DNA from: Armatimonadota bacterium
GTDB taxonomy: Bacteria; Bacteroidota; Ignavibacteria; OLB7
DNA length: 45,452 nt
Assembly: GCA_020850315.1 (NCBI GenBank)
Contig: JADZEY010000116.1
Coordinates: 1-45,452 of the forward strand
Direction of reading: 5' to 3'
The notes beneath the pieces were generated by a model. That model ran no database searches. It was not told the DNA's origin and saw only the letters and a list, made by a program, of their open reading frames with translations. Of the stretch, positions 4,733 through 14,155 are shown in pieces. The first letter of the stretch is position 1, and each line of letters begins with the position of its first letter. Position numbers and translations under genes: made by a program.

Positions 4733-5134
4733 TTATGGAGTTTGCGCATCTGGCTTGTTCTGCCAATCCCCTTCCGGCAACTGCTGGCTGCTGGCGGCTG
4801 GGCCGACGGAGTTCAGCAGTTGGGTGATCCGTTCAACTGCCTCGAAGGTGTCATCACGGTAAAAGCGGAGTTCGGGGATCGCTTTCATGCTCACCAACCC
4901 GGTCAATTTTTTCCGAAGCTCCGGCATGTGTGTGTTCATCCGCTTCACCAGCAGGTCGGGGTCGGTGGTGCTGCGGTAGATGCTGACATAGACTTTGGCA
5001 ATGGAAAGATCGGGGGACATTTTCACCGAAACCACGGTAATCATGCCATCCAGATACTCTGGCAGGCTCCGTTGGAACATCGCTGCCAGTGCTTCGCGGA
5101 GCATTGCTCCAACACGTTCAGTGCGTATTGACAT
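4733..5134 (-). CDS. rbfA: 30S ribosome-binding factor A
   Basis: Late 30S maturation factor that binds near helix 1 and helps process the 5' end of 16S rRNA, important in cold. The 133-residue product contains a KH-like fold with the usual pattern: basic N terminus RTERVGAMLREALA, then ITVVSVKMSPDLSIAKVYVSI, and IPELRFYRDDTFEAVERI near the end. The frame is open to 5209, but the ATG at 5134 (MSIRTERVG) matches the usual N terminus. The Gln/Pro-rich last 20 residues are not conserved. It lies between infB and truB. Confidence 0.95.
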   Translation of the reverse strand: MSIRTERVGAMLREALAAMFQRSLPEYLDGMITVVSVKMSPDLSIAKVYVSIYRSTTDPDLLVKRMNTHMPELRKKLTGLVSMKAIPELRFYRDDTFEAVERITQLLNSVGPAASSQQLPEGDWQNKPDAQTP

Positions 5135-5246
5135 CGGAAGTTGGTTATCGGGGGAATCGGTTGTTAATGGAAACGCCGACCGGTGTTTGGTCGGTTCAGC
5201 ACTCAGCATAAGCAGGGCATCGGCAACTGTTGTTTTTTTAACAAAG

Positions 5247-5300: not shown

Positions 5301-8300
5301 TTATGCTGTTCCGGCGGTTTCCAGTTTCCGTTTCACTTCCACCATTTTGAACGATTCGATTACGTCACCTTGTTTGATGTCGTTCATGCCATCAAGGGTG
5401 ATGCCGCACTCGTAGCCTTGTTCCACTTCGCGCACGTCATCTTTCAGGCGGCGTAGCGATGAAACGGTTCCGGTGAAAATCTCCAGTCCATCGCGCAGCA
5501 GGCGAATTTTGTCGTTGCGGACGATTTTGCCATCCTGCACGTAGCAACCGGCAATGGTTCCGATGCGGGAGATTTTGAAGATGTCGCGAACCTCCACGGT
5601 GGCCGTGATGACTTCTTTGAACTCCGGTTTCAGCATCCCTTCCAACGCCGCACGGACTTCGTTGACGGTGTCGTAGATGATCTGGTAGGTGCGGATTTCC
5701 ACCCCTTCGCGTTCGGCCAGTTTGCGCGCCTTCAGGTTCGGGCGGACGTGGAAGCCGATGATAATTGCGTTGGATGCCGTGGCAAGCAGCACGTCCGATT
5801 CGGAAATTTCTCCCACCGATTTCATAATCACCGTCACCTGAACTTCCGGTGTGGAAAGGCGCAGCAACGCATCGGCCAGGGCCTCTACAGATCCGTCCAC
5901 GTCGCCCTTGATAATCAGCGGCAGGTTCTGCACGCCACCACGGGCTATTTGGTCGGAAAGCTCGTCCAGCGTCAGGTGGCGGCCTTGTTTGAACTCCTGT
6001 TCACGGCGCACTTGCTGGCGGCGTGTGGCGATTTCGCGGGCATCGCGGTCGTTCTCCATCACCACAATCGCATCGCCTGCGGTTGGCGGGCCGTCGAACC
6101 CAAGTATCTGCGCTGGCTCGGATGGACCAACGTGCTGCAATCGCTGACCACGTTCATCCATCATGGCGCGGACGCGACCGTAGTGGTGGCCGGCCACAAA
6201 AGCGTCGCCAACTTTCAGCGTTCCTTTCTGGACCAGGACGGTTGCCACCACACCTTTGCCACGGTCAATTTCCGACTCAATCACCACGCCGCGTGCTTGG
6301 CGGCTTGGGTTGGCTTTCAGATCCAGCAGCTCGGATTCCAGAAGGATTGCATCCAACAGTTTATCAACGTTCAGCCCCTGGCGTGCGGAGATTTCGACGC
6401 ACTGGTATTTGCCCCCCCATTGCTCCACCAGAATCCCACGGTCGGCAAGCTGTTGCTTGATTCGGTCGGGGTTTGCGTCCGGTTTATCAATTTTATTGAT
6501 AGTGATAATCATCGGCACGTTGGCGGCTTGCGCGTGCGAGATTGCCTCTAGAGTTTGGGGCATTACTGCGTCGTCGGCGGCAACAATCAGCACCACGATG
6601 TCGGTGACTTGTGCGCCGCGTGCGCGCATTGCGGTGAAGGCTTCGTGGCCCGGCGTATCAAGGAAGGTGATCTTCCGTTTGTCCGACAGCGTGACGCTGT
6701 AGGCACCGATATGCTGGGTGATGCCGCCAGCTTCGCCAGCCACCACGTTCGCGCTGCGGACATAATCTAGCAAGGAGGTTTTGCCGTGATCCACGTGTCC
6801 CATGATCGTGACGATCGGTGCGCGTTGTTGCAGTGTTTCGGGCGCATCCTCGATGTCGGCAAGGGCATCTTCGGCAAATTCCTCGGTGAACTCGACGGTG
6901 TAGCCAAACTCATCGGAAACCAGTTGGATGGTGTCGCGGTCAAGGCGTTGGTTGATGGAGACCATCAGCCCAAGCCCGATACACTTGCCGATAACTTGGC
7001 TAACGTCAACATTCATCAGGTTGGCAAGCTCGGCAACGGTGATGAATTCCGTCACGCGCAAAATTGTTGCTTCGGCACTTTCGCGTTCGCGTTGTGCTTG
7101 TGCGCGTGCTTCGTGGTGCGCCCGTTTGTTCTTGCTGTGTTGTTGCCGTCCGGATTTGCTGGTTGTCCCCATGTGGGAGAAGGTCTTGCGCACTTGTTTG
7201 TTGACCTCATTGTGGTCAACCGCAACGTTTGGCCCTTTCCGTCCGCCACGATTATTTCCTGCTCCGGTGGCTGTGCCGGTTCCGGTGCGCCCTGTGTTGC
7301 CGCCGGTTTGGGTAGTGTTGGGGCGCGGTGTGGTTCCGGTTGTGGAGGCTCCGCCGGTGGTTCCGGTTGTTCGTGCCCGTGCAGTTTCGGCATTGATATC
7401 AATGGTTTTGCCACGGGTACGAGTGCGGGTCCGTTTCTTGTCTTTCTCTTTTTCCTTCTCCTTTTTCCCGCCGATCTCAATTTTTCCAAGCACCGTAAGC
7501 CCTTGCAGCTTGGGTGGTGGCGAGACAAACCGTGAATCTTGGCCGCCTTCTGTGGTGGCCGCCGTCGGAGGTTCTGGTTCCGGGAGCGGTTCTGGTTCCG
7601 GGATCGGCTCTGGTTCTGATTCGGTTTCGCGGCCACGCATGGCAATGCGGCGAAGCTCATCAATTCGCGAGCGACGTGCGATTTCTAATTGGGCCGCACG
7701 TTCTTCTTGGCTGATGATTGGTGTGGCCGGTTCGGCTTCCGTCACTGGCTCCACAATCGGTGCTGGCGCAGGCGGCGGCGGCGGCGTTGCTGGTTGGGAG
7801 GCAGAATCGGCAGCTGCTGAATCTTGGGCGTTACTGGCTTGTGCCGTTACCGGGGAGGGTTCGGGTTGCTGGGGCTGATCTGGCGTAGCAGCCGGTTGGG
7901 GGTGTGAAATTTCTGCAGGCGTTGACAGCTGCGGTGCTGCCGATGGAGTTGTCCCGGTTGTGGCAGCAACGGGCATCTCAGGCTGCGGGGCGGTTGCCGG
8001 AACCTCTGGTGCGATAGGCACTGCCGGTTCGGTTTGCACCGGTTGGTCCGAAGGTTCGGTTGCTTCGGTGGTGGCCACAGCAATCACTTCTTCGGTTGCT
8101 TCCTCCGAAGGTTCATCCTGTGCAGCTTCTTTCCCTTTCCCTTTTTTTGCGGGTGCGGCATCATCTTTTGGGCGCACTCGCTTTTCGTGGTAGGCATCTA
8201 CCTTTTTGCGTTGCTTTTCAATCTGCCGGTGCTCTTTCTCAAATTTGTCCATGACAAGGTCGTACATCTCCTGCGACAGTTGTTCTGTCGGTTTTGGGGA

Positions 8301-8417
8301 GATGTCGAATCCTTTAGCGCGTAGGAATTCCGCGATGGTCTCCTTACCGATATTCAGTTCGGCAGCCACCTTGAAAAGCCTATAGGTTGCACCTTTTGCT
8401 GTTGTTGTTGCAGGCAT
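5301..8417 (-). CDS. infB: Translation initiation factor IF-2
   Basis: GTPase that places fMet-tRNA on the 30S subunit and promotes subunit joining. The 1038-residue protein opens with an IF2 N-terminal module (about 10-60), followed by a long low-complexity linker rich in Ala, Pro, Glu and Gln (about 65-330) and a basic Thr/Gly-rich stretch. A second IF2_N module lies near 455-515. The G domain has GHVDHGKT (540-547), DTPGHEAF, and NKID; domains 2-4 follow to the C terminus. The ATG at 8417 is supported by the conserved start of the first module (YRLFKVAAELNIGKETI). No Shine-Dalgarno is visible. It is downstream of nusA and upstream of rbfA. Confidence 0.98.
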   Translation of the reverse strand: MPATTTAKGATYRLFKVAAELNIGKETIAEFLRAKGFDISPKPTEQLSQEMYDLVMDKFEKEHRQIEKQRKKVDAYHEKRVRPKDDAAPAKKGKGKEAAQDEPSEEATEEVIAVATTEATEPSDQPVQTEPAVPIAPEVPATAPQPEMPVAATTGTTPSAAPQLSTPAEISHPQPAATPDQPQQPEPSPVTAQASNAQDSAAADSASQPATPPPPPAPAPIVEPVTEAEPATPIISQEERAAQLEIARRSRIDELRRIAMRGRETESEPEPIPEPEPLPEPEPPTAATTEGGQDSRFVSPPPKLQGLTVLGKIEIGGKKEKEKEKDKKRTRTRTRGKTIDINAETARARTTGTTGGASTTGTTPRPNTTQTGGNTGRTGTGTATGAGNNRGGRKGPNVAVDHNEVNKQVRKTFSHMGTTSKSGRQQHSKNKRAHHEARAQAQRERESAEATILRVTEFITVAELANLMNVDVSQVIGKCIGLGLMVSINQRLDRDTIQLVSDEFGYTVEFTEEFAEDALADIEDAPETLQQRAPIVTIMGHVDHGKTSLLDYVRSANVVAGEAGGITQHIGAYSVTLSDKRKITFLDTPGHEAFTAMRARGAQVTDIVVLIVAADDAVMPQTLEAISHAQAANVPMIITINKIDKPDANPDRIKQQLADRGILVEQWGGKYQCVEISARQGLNVDKLLDAILLESELLDLKANPSRQARGVVIESEIDRGKGVVATVLVQKGTLKVGDAFVAGHHYGRVRAMMDERGQRLQHVGPSEPAQILGFDGPPTAGDAIVVMENDRDAREIATRRQQVRREQEFKQGRHLTLDELSDQIARGGVQNLPLIIKGDVDGSVEALADALLRLSTPEVQVTVIMKSVGEISESDVLLATASNAIIIGFHVRPNLKARKLAEREGVEIRTYQIIYDTVNEVRAALEGMLKPEFKEVITATVEVRDIFKISRIGTIAGCYVQDGKIVRNDKIRLLRDGLEIFTGTVSSLRRLKDDVREVEQGYECGITLDGMNDIKQGDVIESFKMVEVKRKLETAGTA

Positions 8418-8642: not shown

Positions 8643-10025
8643 TTATTCGGCTTGCTTATCGGCTTCGGCAGCAGTGCTTTCGGCCACGGTGCTTTCGGCC
8701 ACGGTGCTTTCGGCAGCGGCTTGGGGAACTGGGCGGATGTCAATATCGCGCAGTTCGTCCTCTTCAAATTCCGCCATCATCACCCTGCGTAGTTCCTCTA
8801 TTTTGGCTGGGGTCATGCCTTCTAACGATAGGAGGGTTGCTGGGTCGGCTTTCAGGAATTCTTTTGCTGTTTCGATTTCGGCTTCCACCAACAGCTTGAA
8901 CAGGGCGTCGCCAACTTCTTCACGGAATTCCGCCAGTTCGATATCCTCGCCCCCTTCTTTCACCAGTGAGATGGAGTAGCCGGTGAGCTTCATGGCAAGG
9001 CGCACGTTTTGCCCGTTTTTGCCAATGGCAAGCGACACTTGGTCATCGGGGACCACCACGGTTGCGGTGCGGGTGTCGTTGTCAATCGTGATCTCCTTCA
9101 CTTTTGCTGGCTGCAAGGCGCGCGCAACAAATTGCTTGGCATCGCTGGACCAGGGGATAACGTCAATGTTCTCGTTGGCAAGCTCGCGGACGATAGAGTG
9201 GATGCGAACCCCTTTCATCCCGACGCACGCGCCAACTGGATCAACGCGCTCATCAAGCGACATCACCGCCACTTTTGCACGCTCCCCTGGCTCGCGGGCA
9301 ATCCCTTTCATCTCAATGATGCCATCGTAGATTTCTGGGATCTCAATCTCAAACAACCGCTGCAGAAATTGTGGGTCGCTGCGGCTGATGATAATCTCCG
9401 GTTGCCCCTGCCCTTCGTGAACGCGAACCTCCTTCAGCAAGGCGCGGACGGACTCCCCTTTCTTGTAGCGTTCGCGCCATATCTGCTCGTTGCGTGGCAT
9501 CCGCATTTCTACTTTGCCGTGCATCACGTACACGTCGTTGCGGCGCACTTGATAGACTTCGGTGACGATAATTTCCCCCACTTTTTGGCTGTACTCGGCC
9601 ACCACGTTATCGCGCTCAACTTCGCGGACGCGCTGGCTTAGGGTTTGCGCAGCCATGGAGATCATTCGGCGACCAAAGAACTCCGAAAGGTTTTCAAGGT
9701 TCAGTTCGGTTAGGTGCTCATCGCCAACTTCATAATTCTCTCCCTGGTGATTTGCTTCCTCGATGGCAATCTGCAGGTTGGGGTCTTCAACCTCATCCAC
9801 TACTTCGCGCAGCAGGTAGATTTCGATATCCCCTTTGTCCATGTTGACGATGATGTCGAAGTTGGAATCTTGCCCATACTTCTTGCGCACCATCTGGCTG
9901 AATGTGTCTTCAATAATTCCCTGCAACAGGTCGCGATCAATGTTTTTCTGGCGCGCCATTTCGGCAAACGCTTCAATGATCAACTGCTTATTGATGCTCG
10001 ATTTGGCTGATTTTCTCTTGGCCAT
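8643..10025 (-). CDS. nusA: Transcription termination/antitermination factor NusA
   Basis: RNA polymerase-binding factor that controls pausing, intrinsic termination and rRNA antitermination. The 460-residue product has the N-terminal polymerase-binding domain (about 1-135), an S1 domain (about 140-205), and two KH domains (about 235-350) with VGMKGVRI and IAIGKNGQNVRLAM. A helical C-terminal region with one helix-hairpin-helix-like segment (SLEGMTPAKIEEL) follows. The last 25 residues contain a small AESTV repeat encoded by near-identical 15-bp units (about 8670-8715). It starts at an ATG without a Shine-Dalgarno, 43 bases after rimP. It may autoregulate the operon through the leader terminator at 10699-10734. 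Confidence 0.97.
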   Translation of the reverse strand: MAKRKSAKSSINKQLIIEAFAEMARQKNIDRDLLQGIIEDTFSQMVRKKYGQDSNFDIIVNMDKGDIEIYLLREVVDEVEDPNLQIAIEEANHQGENYEVGDEHLTELNLENLSEFFGRRMISMAAQTLSQRVREVERDNVVAEYSQKVGEIIVTEVYQVRRNDVYVMHGKVEMRMPRNEQIWRERYKKGESVRALLKEVRVHEGQGQPEIIISRSDPQFLQRLFEIEIPEIYDGIIEMKGIAREPGERAKVAVMSLDERVDPVGACVGMKGVRIHSIVRELANENIDVIPWSSDAKQFVARALQPAKVKEITIDNDTRTATVVVPDDQVSLAIGKNGQNVRLAMKLTGYSISLVKEGGEDIELAEFREEVGDALFKLLVEAEIETAKEFLKADPATLLSLEGMTPAKIEELRRVMMAEFEEDELRDIDIRPVPQAAAESTVAESTVAESTAAEADKQAE

Positions 10026-10068: not shown

Positions 10069-10545
10069 TTATAGCTCCGGCTCAACAATCGCTTGCTTCA
10101 CATCGGTAAGCGGGATGGTAAGCTGCTCGGCGGTGTCGCGGCGGCCAGCGCGGCGGGTTACGGTTAGCGCATCCGCCGATGCTTCGGCAAGCCGGAATAT
10201 CTCGGTACGGGTTGCCCCTTCTGAATCAGCATACTGGAGCTTCAGCAGCCGCCCAACGTTTTTGCGGTATTGCCAATCAAGCTGAAGCGGGCGGTCTAAC
10301 CCTGCCGAGGAAACCTCTAGGCGATAGCGGCCAGCGATTGCTTCTTCGTGTTGATCCAGCAAGGCACTAACCCAGCGGCTTAGCTCGGTTAGCTGATCCA
10401 GCTGCACGCCTTGCTCGGAGTCCACAATCACCTCTACGACGGAAGTGTTTCGCTGCCCGCGCCGAATCACCTCCAACAGCACCATTCCGCGCTGTTCGGT
10501 TTCTTGGCGGATCATCTCTTCTATCTGTTGCGGCAGTCCGCTCAT
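10069..10545 (-). CDS. rimP: Ribosome maturation factor RimP
   Basis: Acts early in 30S assembly. The 158-residue protein matches family length. It shows the N-terminal alpha/beta domain (VVEVIVDSEQGVQLDQLTEL) and the linker motif YRLEVSSAGLDRPL, a mild variant of the usual SSPGLDRPL with Ala replacing Pro, then an SH3-like C-terminal domain. It is the first gene of the operon, starting at the ATG at 10545, with about 200 nt of leader back to the best promoter. Confidence 0.94.
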   Translation of the reverse strand: MSGLPQQIEEMIRQETEQRGMVLLEVIRRGQRNTSVVEVIVDSEQGVQLDQLTELSRWVSALLDQHEEAIAGRYRLEVSSAGLDRPLQLDWQYRKNVGRLLKLQYADSEGATRTEIFRLAEASADALTVTRRAGRRDTAEQLTIPLTDVKQAIVEPEL

Positions 10546-10601
10546 TGCTTCGGGTTATTCCAAGCCGTGAAGGGCCTGCGGCATACGCCCCCAGACCCGT
10601 T

Positions 10602-10621
10602 GGCAATAGTTTAGTATTGCC
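10602..10621. promoter_or_regulatory. Short palindrome in the rimP leader
   Basis: GGCAATA (10602-10608) and TATTGCC (10615-10621) form a perfect 7-bp inverted repeat with a 6-nt spacer, overlapping the weak promoter candidate at 10611-10639. It may be an operator or an mRNA hairpin ahead of rimP. Confidence 0.4.
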
Positions 10622-10639
10622 TTCCCCCATGATGCTCAA
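10611..10639 (-). promoter_or_regulatory. Weak secondary promoter candidate for rimP operon
   Basis: On the minus strand TTGAGC (10639-10634) is followed after 17 nt by TACTAA (10616-10611). Both boxes are imperfect, so this is only a candidate. It would bypass the terminator at 10699-10734. Confidence 0.25.
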
Positions 10640-10698
10640 TCCCCTTGTTCACGAAAGATGCGCCAATGGCACACTCTCTCTTTCAATGCCTGATGGGG

Positions 10699-10734
10699 AA
10701 AAAAAAGTGGGCACGCGTTTCCGCCCTTGCCCAC
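10699..10734 (-). terminator. Intrinsic terminator in the leader of the rimP-nusA operon (candidate attenuator)
   Basis: On the minus strand GTGGGCA pairs with TGCCCAC (7 bp, plus an inner GCG-GAAA-CGC tetraloop stem), followed directly by eight U residues (plus-strand A run 10699-10706). This is a canonical intrinsic terminator. It lies about 10 bases after the expected start of transcription from the promoter at 10751-10782 and 154 bases before rimP, and no gene ends upstream of it on this strand. It is therefore a leader terminator, or it ends a roughly 45-nt RNA. Confidence 0.75.
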
Positions 10735-10750
10735 TGAGAAAGGAGTGCTG

Positions 10751-10782
10751 CAAAGATACGGTTGTGCCGCAAGCTGACGCAA
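10751..10782 (-). promoter_or_regulatory. Main promoter candidate for the rimP-nusA-infB operon
   Basis: On the minus strand TTGCGT (10782-10777), 18-nt spacer, TATCTTTG (10758-10751), continuing CAG. The 11-mer TATCTTTGCAG is identical to that in the groES promoter at 23699, and the element agrees with the FCB-type TA-N2-TTTG box. Transcription would begin near 10745. Confidence 0.65.
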
Positions 10783-10824: not shown

Positions 10825-10858
10825 TTGGTTGGGTGTGGGGGAAGTTGCCGTAACTTTG
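10825..10858 (+). promoter_or_regulatory. Promoter candidate for the secreted FN3-like protein
   Basis: TAACTTTG (10851-10858, followed by CAG) with TTGG repeats 18-22 nt upstream (10825-10832). It faces away from the minus promoter at 10751-10782, about 42 bases apart. The mRNA leader would be about 165 nt; I see no recognisable riboswitch in it. Confidence 0.55.
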
Positions 10859-11030: not shown

Positions 11031-14000
11031 ATGCGCAGATTTCTACAACTCTCTATCAGCTGCCTATCATTGCTGTTGTTTGCTGTTGCCAACGATGCAA
11101 CGGCACAAGGGCGGCGCATCAGCAGCTTCCCCTACACCCAACTGTTTGGGTTCGTGACGGCTGGCGTTACTCAGTTCCCCACCACCAATGTGGATGGTGG
11201 TGAGTTCGTTGATGATGATTCAACAGCAACAACGTGGGTTGGTGCTTCAAGCGCAGGCTTGTACAACGCTGGCGGAAAAATCCGGATACAGACAACCAGC
11301 GCAAAAACACGGCAAGGCTTTGTTTGGTATGGCGACCTTAGCAACGCCAACGCCGATAGCCTGAGCGTTGCTTGGAATAAAGTGACGAACCTTCCCGCTG
11401 GAACCCGAACAAGCGAACTCCGGATTGCAACAAACGGAGGTAGCGGCGGCGCGTTTACCGATGTTTCGGGGGTTACATGGCCCACGTTCGATAACTCAAT
11501 CACGTCGCAAAGTGGAATCCTTAAAATCAAGCTACCCGCGTCGTTGCACGGAAGCTCGGATGTTCGCATCCGCATCTACATCTATCACGGTGGTGCTGGA
11601 AGCGGGGATCAACCACAGCTGGAGGTTGACACCCTGAAAATCACTACCACTTGCCTTGGTCCCGCAACCGCTACGTTCGATTCGGCGGGGGCAATCGGCA
11701 CGCAGAATATGTGGCTCTATTTCAAAGCCACGGCCCGCACCGATTCGATGCTGGTGATTAAGCGGGAAGGGACATCGGCGCCAACCGCCTTGCCCGCCGA
11801 CGGCACACGCTACACCGCCGGGCAAGGGCTGAATGGAACCGATACTGTGGTGTTCTGGGGCCCCGCAACCAAGGCGCGCGCACACGTCGCCGGATTGAAA
11901 AATGCCACGGCCTACAAGTTCACCATCTACGGCTGGCGAACCTGCTCGGCCACCTACTCGGTGGGGGATACGGTTGCCGCCACAACGCTATCGGCCTGTG
12001 CTGAAACGCCCGATAAAATCACGAACATCAGCGCGCCCTATGTTGATGCCACAACGGTGAAGTTCGACTTCACCACCGGAGCCCGCACCGATAGCGTGCT
12101 GATTATTCGCCGCAAAAATGCCCCGCCGGGGCTTGGCCCATCCCCCAAAAAACGCTACTTAGTTGGGGAGATTGTCGGGCTGGATAACACCGTTGTCTAT
12201 TTTGGCCCGCCCGACTCTCTTGTCACAGTGATTGGCCACCAGTCGGACTCGCTGTATGTCTATTCCTTCTACGGATTCCAATCCTGCAATGTCACCTACA
12301 ACGGCATTGGATCGCTGGATACCGTGCGGATGCGCTGCACTGGCCAACCGCGTGATGTGTCGTCGCTGACCGCCCGCTACACCAGTTCCAACAGCGCGGG
12401 CCTGCAAATATCGCTGACCGGGTTTGCCGACCATTACCTGGTGTTCCGCGATGGCGGCAACGGGCTTCCGCCAACGCTGACCAACGGAACCGATTACCCC
12501 GTTGGGACCATCGTTGGCGACGATACCGTGAAATACTACGGAACCAGCCGCCGCCCAGCCATTACCGGGCTGCCAGCAGCAACCGCCTCGACGTTCCATG
12601 CCTACGGCGTGCGCCAGTGCAACAGCACCTACTCAAGCAGCGGGGCATCGGCCACCACCACCACAAAGCCGGCTTGCGCTTCCACCCCAGATATGCTGAA
12701 CGTGCAGGGGCTGGAGATTGTGAAAAACGTCACCGACACCTTGCAGCTGCGCTGGCGGAAACTGAGTGGCGTGGACAGCTTTGTGGTGGTAGCCCGGATT
12801 GACTCCACCCCGGGCTACGCGCCACCCAACGGCTGGCTGTACGACAAAACCGACCAGTTCGGCGGAGCCTACGTGCTGGCCACCGTTCCGGCAACCGACA
12901 CGCAAACAACAATTTTGCGGCTGCCAAGCAACACCGCCTACTTCTTGCAGATCTACGGGATGCGTGCCTGCGATCTTGCCTACAGTTTCAGTTCGGCAAC
13001 GCTGGCCTTTGCCACGCCTGGAACGCAGGTTTCGCAACGGTTTGCGGTGCGGGCCAAAACGTTGCCAAGCCTAACCTTTGGCTTTGCAACGATCACCTTC
13101 ACCAAAGCTCCACTTGCCGATGGCAGCTTGCTGATAACCCGACGCGGCGGCCCCCCGGGCCCCGGAACCCGAGGATTACCATTTTTCCGCGCCGGAAAAT
13201 CGCCGGTGGATGTGGTGAGCAACTACCGTTGGTGGAGCTTTAACCGTGTGGGGCTTGATAGCTTCCAGTATGATATGCGGCTTGATGTCACAGGAATTTC
13301 AGGGGTGAAAGACACTGGCGATTTAGAGATTCTGTACCGCCCTCACCCCGATAGCGTATGGTTGGATATCATCACAACCGCACGGGAAACTGACGGTGGG
13401 AAACTGGTGCTCCGTTCCAACGATCGCTACTTCTTTAGCGATTACGCAATCGGTGCCAACAGCAAAAGCAATGTGCTTCCGGTGAAACTGATCTCCTTCA
13501 CCGGATACGCCCGCCCGGGCCAGGCAACGCTGCGCTGGCGAACCGCTGGCGAATTGAACACGCTTGGCTTCCGGGTCTATCGCGCTCGGGTGGCGGCAAA
13601 TGGAGTTGCCGGGGATCAGGCAATCGTTGCTGATTACATGAGTGATAACCGCCTGCGCAGCAATGGGAACACCACCCTCCCGCGTGACTACGCACTGCTT
13701 GATGCCGACGACGAATTATTCACCCCCGGGAACTATCGCTACCGATTGGAAGAGGTCACGGTGGATGGAACCACCGAAACGGTAGGGGAGTTGATGGTGG
13801 AAGTTGCCCAGGAAACTACCGGCGCGTTGCGGTTTGGCCCGATAACACCAAACCCAACAACCGGAGCCATGACCCTGCGGTTTGCCTTGCCCGAAGAAAG
13901 CAACGTCCACGTGGCGCTGCACGACCTAACCGGGCGGGAACTACGGACACTGGTTGCCAACCAGCATCTGAGCGCAGGAACCCACACCATTGCCGTTGCT

Positions 14001-14087
14001 GGCGATGATCTTCCGGCAGGAACCTACTACTGCCGATTGACCTGCAATGGCCAAACAAAACTTCAGCCTGTGGTGATTGTGCGATAG
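11031..14087 (+). CDS. Secreted multi-FN3-like protein with T9SS C-terminal sorting domain
   Basis: A 1018-residue predicted surface or secreted protein. I start at the ATG at 11031, giving a classic signal peptide (MRRFLQLSIS to TAQ, about 25 residues). An N-terminal beta-rich domain (about 26-205) is followed by four tandem modules of about 113 residues with FN3-like traits, each opening with Cys-x-x-x-Pro/Ala and closing with a YG-x-R/Q-x-Cys-x-x-x-Tyr motif: Cys pairs 208/305, 323/419, 436/530, 549/647. Then comes a stalk domain with LPVKLISFTGYARPG, and a T9SS type A sorting domain (about 940-1018: PNPTTG, LTGRELR, LPAGTYYCRL). Ligand or enzymatic role is not recognisable. An intrinsic terminator follows. 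Confidence 0.85.
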   Translation: MRRFLQLSISCLSLLLFAVANDATAQGRRISSFPYTQLFGFVTAGVTQFPTTNVDGGEFVDDDSTATTWVGASSAGLYNAGGKIRIQTTSAKTRQGFVWYGDLSNANADSLSVAWNKVTNLPAGTRTSELRIATNGGSGGAFTDVSGVTWPTFDNSITSQSGILKIKLPASLHGSSDVRIRIYIYHGGAGSGDQPQLEVDTLKITTTCLGPATATFDSAGAIGTQNMWLYFKATARTDSMLVIKREGTSAPTALPADGTRYTAGQGLNGTDTVVFWGPATKARAHVAGLKNATAYKFTIYGWRTCSATYSVGDTVAATTLSACAETPDKITNISAPYVDATTVKFDFTTGARTDSVLIIRRKNAPPGLGPSPKKRYLVGEIVGLDNTVVYFGPPDSLVTVIGHQSDSLYVYSFYGFQSCNVTYNGIGSLDTVRMRCTGQPRDVSSLTARYTSSNSAGLQISLTGFADHYLVFRDGGNGLPPTLTNGTDYPVGTIVGDDTVKYYGTSRRPAITGLPAATASTFHAYGVRQCNSTYSSSGASATTTTKPACASTPDMLNVQGLEIVKNVTDTLQLRWRKLSGVDSFVVVARIDSTPGYAPPNGWLYDKTDQFGGAYVLATVPATDTQTTILRLPSNTAYFLQIYGMRACDLAYSFSSATLAFATPGTQVSQRFAVRAKTLPSLTFGFATITFTKAPLADGSLLITRRGGPPGPGTRGLPFFRAGKSPVDVVSNYRWWSFNRVGLDSFQYDMRLDVTGISGVKDTGDLEILYRPHPDSVWLDIITTARETDGGKLVLRSNDRYFFSDYAIGANSKSNVLPVKLISFTGYARPGQATLRWRTAGELNTLGFRVYRARVAANGVAGDQAIVADYMSDNRLRSNGNTTLPRDYALLDADDELFTPGNYRYRLEEVTVDGTTETVGELMVEVAQETTGALRFGPITPNPTTGAMTLRFALPEESNVHVALHDLTGRELRTLVANQHLSAGTHTIAVAGDDLPAGTYYCRLTCNGQTKLQPVVIVR

Positions 14088-14108: not shown

Positions 14109-14155
14109 GCCGCCGCCTTTTGGGGGAATCGCTCCCGAAAGGCGGCGGCTTGTTG
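14109..14155 (+). terminator. Intrinsic terminator after the FN3-like gene
   Basis: A 12-bp stem GCCGCCGCCTTT / AAAGGCGGCGGC (14109-14120 and 14138-14149) with a 17-nt loop, followed by TTGTTGTT, lies 21 bases after the stop codon. Confidence 0.8.

Follow-up and report, generated by a model that had tools for sequence, protein, structure and literature searches.

A promoter-abutting terminator ahead of rimP-nusA-infB as a probable further example of the rimP-leader attenuator in a Bacteroidota lineage

What is an intrinsic terminator doing almost directly behind the promoter of the operon that encodes NusA? NusA has proved essential in those models that have been studied, and control of its operon, which also encodes IF-2, is known experimentally in few species. 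We addressed this question in a window of 45,452 nt (the whole stretch of DNA analyzed), where RimP, NusA, IF-2 and RbfA are encoded in a single minus-strand run whose order was confirmed by Pfam. The first gene of the operon is rimP (10069-10545, ATG at 10545; RimP_N, E 4e-16), and it is followed by nusA (8643-10025; NusA_N and KH_5, E 2e-30), infB for IF-2 (5301-8417; IF-2, IF2_N and GTP_EFTU) and rbfA (4733-5209; RBFA, E 2e-23). Judged from its letters, the operon's leader contains a short stop signal at which many transcripts probably end prematurely, at a length of about 46 bases.

The original prediction described TTGCGT, an 18-nt spacer and a promoter box on the minus strand, followed by a GC-rich hairpin with a U8 tract, and this is what the sequence holds. 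TTGCGT (10777-10782) represents a TTG-type −33 region that is also present in the same-genus genome G001. It is separated by 18 nt from TATCTTTG (10751-10758), a −7 element of the Bacteroidota sigma-A type TAnnTTTG. As Flavobacterium psychrophilum has TAnnTTTG for its sigma-A −7 box, located at −12 to −5 (PMC9723704), the box was placed at these positions to derive a predicted +1 at about 10746. A sigma-70 promoter scan missed this promoter, as expected for the TAnnTTTG type. The hairpin, AGTGGGCA-AGG-GCG-GAAA-CGC-G-TGCCCACT (10706-10735, minus strand), lies 15 nt from TATCTTTG, with its first base at about +12 and thus some 11 nt past the predicted start. It possesses a GC-rich stem of 8 bp with an inner GCG-GAAA-CGC, and its folding energy is −16.3 kcal/mol alone and −18.3 kcal/mol with flanks. 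The T8 run directly 3' of the stem completes the layout of an intrinsic terminator and corresponds to a U8 tract (10699-10706), in which the aborted RNA is predicted to end. Hairpin and U tract together span 10735-10699, and the terminated RNA (from about 10746 to about 10699) is predicted to be about 46-48 nt long.

The upstream neighboring gene (about 11031-14087) lies on the plus strand and is divergent from the rimP operon, so that, as had been claimed, no gene needs a terminator at 10735-10699. A C-terminal sorting domain of type IX secretion (Por_Secre_tail) was identified in its product, the start of which, MRRFLQLSISCLSLLLFAVANDATAQ, resembles a signal peptide; for this gene there is a −7-type box, TAACTTTG, at 10851-10858 on the plus strand. 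On the operon side, 153 nt separate the terminator from the rimP ATG, and the corresponding gap is 20-162 nt in order-mates. This rest of the rimP 5' leader (10546-10698, minus strand) is poorly conserved, with 67% identity to the same genus and 10-46% to the same family. Neither a second conserved promoter nor an antiterminator was found in it, nor a further TANNTTTG on its minus strand.

Could such an arrangement be expected by chance? Single-sequence statistics are weak on this point. In the window, TANNTTTG was counted 12 times against 12.8 expected, which is the chance level, and scanning the region loosely for terminators gave no excess over shuffles. The 30-nt hairpin folds better than 200 of 200 shuffles (z −4.3), for a segment that had been preselected as a hairpin. 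The rimP-leader site is the top-scoring minus-strand hairpin with a T run in the 45 kb window, and on both strands together no other such site is preceded, at 8-42 nt, by a −7 box. Very stable hairpins on the plus strand at 14109 (GCCGCCGCCTTT stem) and 25871 (CGGCAGGGGCGCGA stem) have weak T-rich tails and are likely to be ordinary gene-end structures. A regulon sharing the motif elsewhere in the genome was rejected: GTGGGC-N3-20-GCCCAC occurs at 5 places in the genome, with a T run after the rimP copy only, and a control pattern is more frequent. It is conservation that is decisive for the reality of the element.

Within the order, we compared the window, as the reference for identities, with four other genomes (G001-G004). 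Over the hairpin and U tract, the four order-mates share 82-97% identity with the window, as against 10-67% over the leader downstream of them; the stem is near-invariant and the tract T-rich in all five genomes. Ahead of rimP, GTGGGC..GCGGAAACGC..GTGCCCAC followed by T8 is found in G001, G002 and G004, and GTGGGC..GCGGAGTCGC..GTGCCCAT followed by T6 in G003. Either TATCTTTG or TATTTTTG precedes the hairpin in three of the four order-mates (G001, G002 and G003), and no clear −7 box was found at the usual place before the hairpin of G004. Conservation in the order is confined to promoter, hairpin and U tract, with no antiterminator or larger RNA element.

To extend the comparison, we searched for RimP in 149 genomes at the level of the class and in 148 at that of the phylum, and inspected some 360 nt spanning the rimP start for 141 genomes, which represent 44 families. 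A strong hairpin with a U tract lies ahead of rimP in 112 of the 141 genomes, compared with 1.1% of shuffles. A relaxed score raised these values to 125 of 141 genomes, in 43 of the 44 families, and 5.8% of shuffles; many of the remaining genomes show weaker versions of hairpin and U tract by eye. The hairpin is preceded by a −7 box at 8-42 nt in 87 of the 125, compared with 33% when the same segment is shuffled. Spacings based on these predicted boxes put the hairpin a median of 11 nt past the predicted start (quartiles 7-20) and give a predicted aborted RNA with a median length of 39 nt (quartiles 33-47). When 52 loci were scanned for the combination of −7 box, hairpin and U tract, 38 occurrences fell at rimP and 6 at other places within the 347 kb of strand. 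The near-universal occurrence of the promoter-abutting layout across the phylum is a minor new point. Because promoter, hairpin and U tract are kept in the same order across the phylum, the proposal of an attenuator before rimP-nusA-infB came through this comparison with relatives unrefuted and is well supported; we consider it very probable that the terminator acts in this way.

Family f10 (L015, L018, L174 and L175) possesses rimP, but a convincing terminator was not found there and seems to be genuinely absent, indicating that the element is not indispensable. In L174 and L175 of this family an upstream reading frame seems to extend close to rimP, and L018 has a TATCTTTG box shortly before rimP. 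With the class-level profile (E 0.001), RimP was not matched in nearly complete genomes of families f13 and f19, in which it is either lost or very divergent.

We also examined the composition of the stems. Their letters vary by family (AGTGGGC/GCCCACT, ATAGCCC/GGGCTAT, TCGCCC/GGGCGA, GTCCCGC/GCGGGAC, GATGTGGGG/CCCGCATT and GAGGGGAC/GTCCCCTC), and three neighboring G-C pairs are nearly always present in the rimP-leader stems of the phylum. The G-rich arm is 5' in 24-25 families and 3', behind a C-rich 5' arm, in 15-18 families. The phylum rimP leaders compared for this arm swap were L111-L167 and L168-L247. Mapped onto a tree of NusA from 54 genomes, which has some long branches and one doubtful join among them, polarity labeled by GGG/CCC triples needs 4 changes, or 3 without one long-branched family. 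A count of compensatory base changes was rejected as circular, because the hairpins had been chosen by complementarity. The swaps of G-rich and C-rich arms between families, a further minor new point, argue for the sensing of structure over that of arm sequence, and they are easier to reconcile with a hairpin sensed in the RNA exit channel than with recognition of the arm sequence by a protein.

How does this element relate to described systems? A rimP-leader with a GGGc..gCCC terminator and no antiterminator was reported by Naville and Gautheret in 2010, who proposed NusA as the effector and named RimP as an alternative (PMC2965389). The window element is this known rimP-leader attenuator, a further example and no new kind of system, and the signal is present in many phyla besides this one. 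Both share the 5' UTR of rimP-nusA-infB, a GGGC..GCCC stem with a U tract and the lack of an antiterminator, and GTGGGC..GCCCAC plus T8 in the window matches the published motif of GGGc(...)gCCC plus a T stretch. AGTGGGC..GCCCACT is also found ahead of rimP in Nitrospirota, Thermodesulfobacteriota and KSB1, and with a G-U pair in Latescibacterota, which makes the window element a typical rimP-leader member by sequence as well. By contrast, its 153 nt to the gene are slightly outside the published range of 4-130 nt, and its hairpin abuts the promoter (at about +12) and has the inner GCG-GAAA-CGC stem. The mirror polarity, with a C-rich 5' arm, occurs in related families of the phylum, whereas the 2010 study has it only for an extra upstream terminator of some Gammaproteobacteria (PMC2965389).

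The nearest match in layout is the rimP leader of Streptococcus agalactiae, in which the terminator is likewise promoter-proximal. RNA-seq in this species detected short and long RNAs from one start, with an end at +31 before rimP-nusA-infB-rbfA, and NusA feedback was proposed (PMC4448216). For Bacillus subtilis, the passage of PMC12288461 that cites Mondal 2016 states that NusA regulates itself by stimulating termination within its own 5' leader; as described there, this nusA (ylxS) leader resembles the window in that both operons for NusA have an intrinsic terminator in their leaders. The S. agalactiae leader, from a different phylum, was mapped by RNA-seq and the NusA response was measured in that of B. 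subtilis, whereas termination and a NusA response at the window element are predictions. In addition, the B. subtilis leader is about 180 nt long (PMC2965389), as against termination predicted by about +46 in the window. Within the same phylum, a structured rimP 5' element of F. psychrophilum is conserved in other Flavobacteriaceae genera, with no Rfam match and no mechanism given (PMC9723704); it resembles the window in its structured rimP 5' region and its TAnnTTTG −7 box. Rfam RF01770 ('rimP', E. coli type, 102 positions, threshold 47 bits) is named after the same operon, but its model fails to match the window element: neither the genome nor, with E values of up to 10, the leader gave a hit, and among 14 control genomes it matched E. 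coli alone. Rfam searches at gathering thresholds and at E up to 10 gave only chance matches to human lncRNAs.

By analogy with these leaders, we lean toward a rimP-leader attenuator through which NusA feeds back on its own operon. Transcription would start at about 10746, and the hairpin and U8 tract would be made by about +46. RNA polymerase would then either release an RNA of 46-48 nt or read through into rimP-nusA-infB-rbfA, and the fraction of read-through would most likely be set by NusA, stimulating hairpin folding and release. Plentiful NusA would thereby lower expression of its own operon. The promoter-like box, the hairpin, the U tract, their order and their conservation are what the sequences show, and termination in the cell, regulated read-through and NusA as the regulator are what we infer here. 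Control by NusA is plausible, and NusA is the first and best-supported candidate signal, given the identity of the gene and the precedents in B. subtilis and S. agalactiae. The 11 nt before the hairpin have no space for a leader peptide or an upstream antiterminator, and both were rejected; this leaves a trans-acting factor on RNA polymerase or the hairpin, or a fixed termination efficiency. A more specific form of NusA control can be offered only tentatively and seems rather unlikely. With the leader reduced in this phylum to a bare hairpin and U tract directly behind the promoter, the polymerase may decide at about +35 to +45, during the exchange of sigma for NusA, and would read the speed of NusA loading after promoter escape by RNA structure alone. 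If true, such a readout would explain how G-rich and C-rich arms could swap without loss.

In B. subtilis, NusA reportedly assists suboptimal hairpins and U tracts (PMC8060035). The stable stem and uninterrupted U8 tract of the window are stronger than such terminators and should terminate well without NusA, which counts against the NusA step and leaves fixed, unregulated attenuation a serious rival. A constant low read-through would then match operon output to need with no sensor, consistent with a strong hairpin, a perfect U8 and a leader free of antiterminators or other conserved RNA elements. However, a weaker promoter would have the same effect at a lower cost, 43 of 44 families have retained the element and NusA feedback has been reported in another phylum, and we regard fixed attenuation as improbable, if well worth weighing. 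Feedback might also be exerted not by NusA but by another operon product or the translation machinery, with RimP, IF-2, RbfA or a ribosomal protein bound to the hairpin. The operon itself encodes the first three, which bind RNA or ribosomes, the stem letters are highly conserved within families and the RimP alternative was raised in 2010 (PMC2965389). That arms swap sides between families, with 3-4 changes on the NusA tree, is hard to accommodate for a reader of arm sequence, making this option less likely still.

The original prediction had also allowed for a tiny stable RNA, the terminated RNA of about 46 nt being itself a trans-acting product. It would be short and structured, with its own promoter and terminator and a sequence kept within the order. 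This idea did not hold up well, as stem and loop sequences differ completely between families while layout and position before rimP are kept, conservation is limited to hairpin and U tract, and there is no Rfam match; we give it very little credence. Equally little attaches to an insulator that blocks stray transcription from the divergent upstream region from entering the operon. Any same-strand transcript crossing the site would meet the terminator, but as an incidental effect, for the site lies downstream of the rimP promoter and so also stops that promoter's own transcripts, and the order of promoter and terminator is conserved across families.

Attenuation of the operon with feedback by NusA thus remains the reading we prefer. 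With the same minimal promoter-abutting terminator in most of a large phylum, these leaders would provide attenuators that are very small and open to testing, and in the families with swapped arms the sensing of structure can be told apart from the recognition of sequence.
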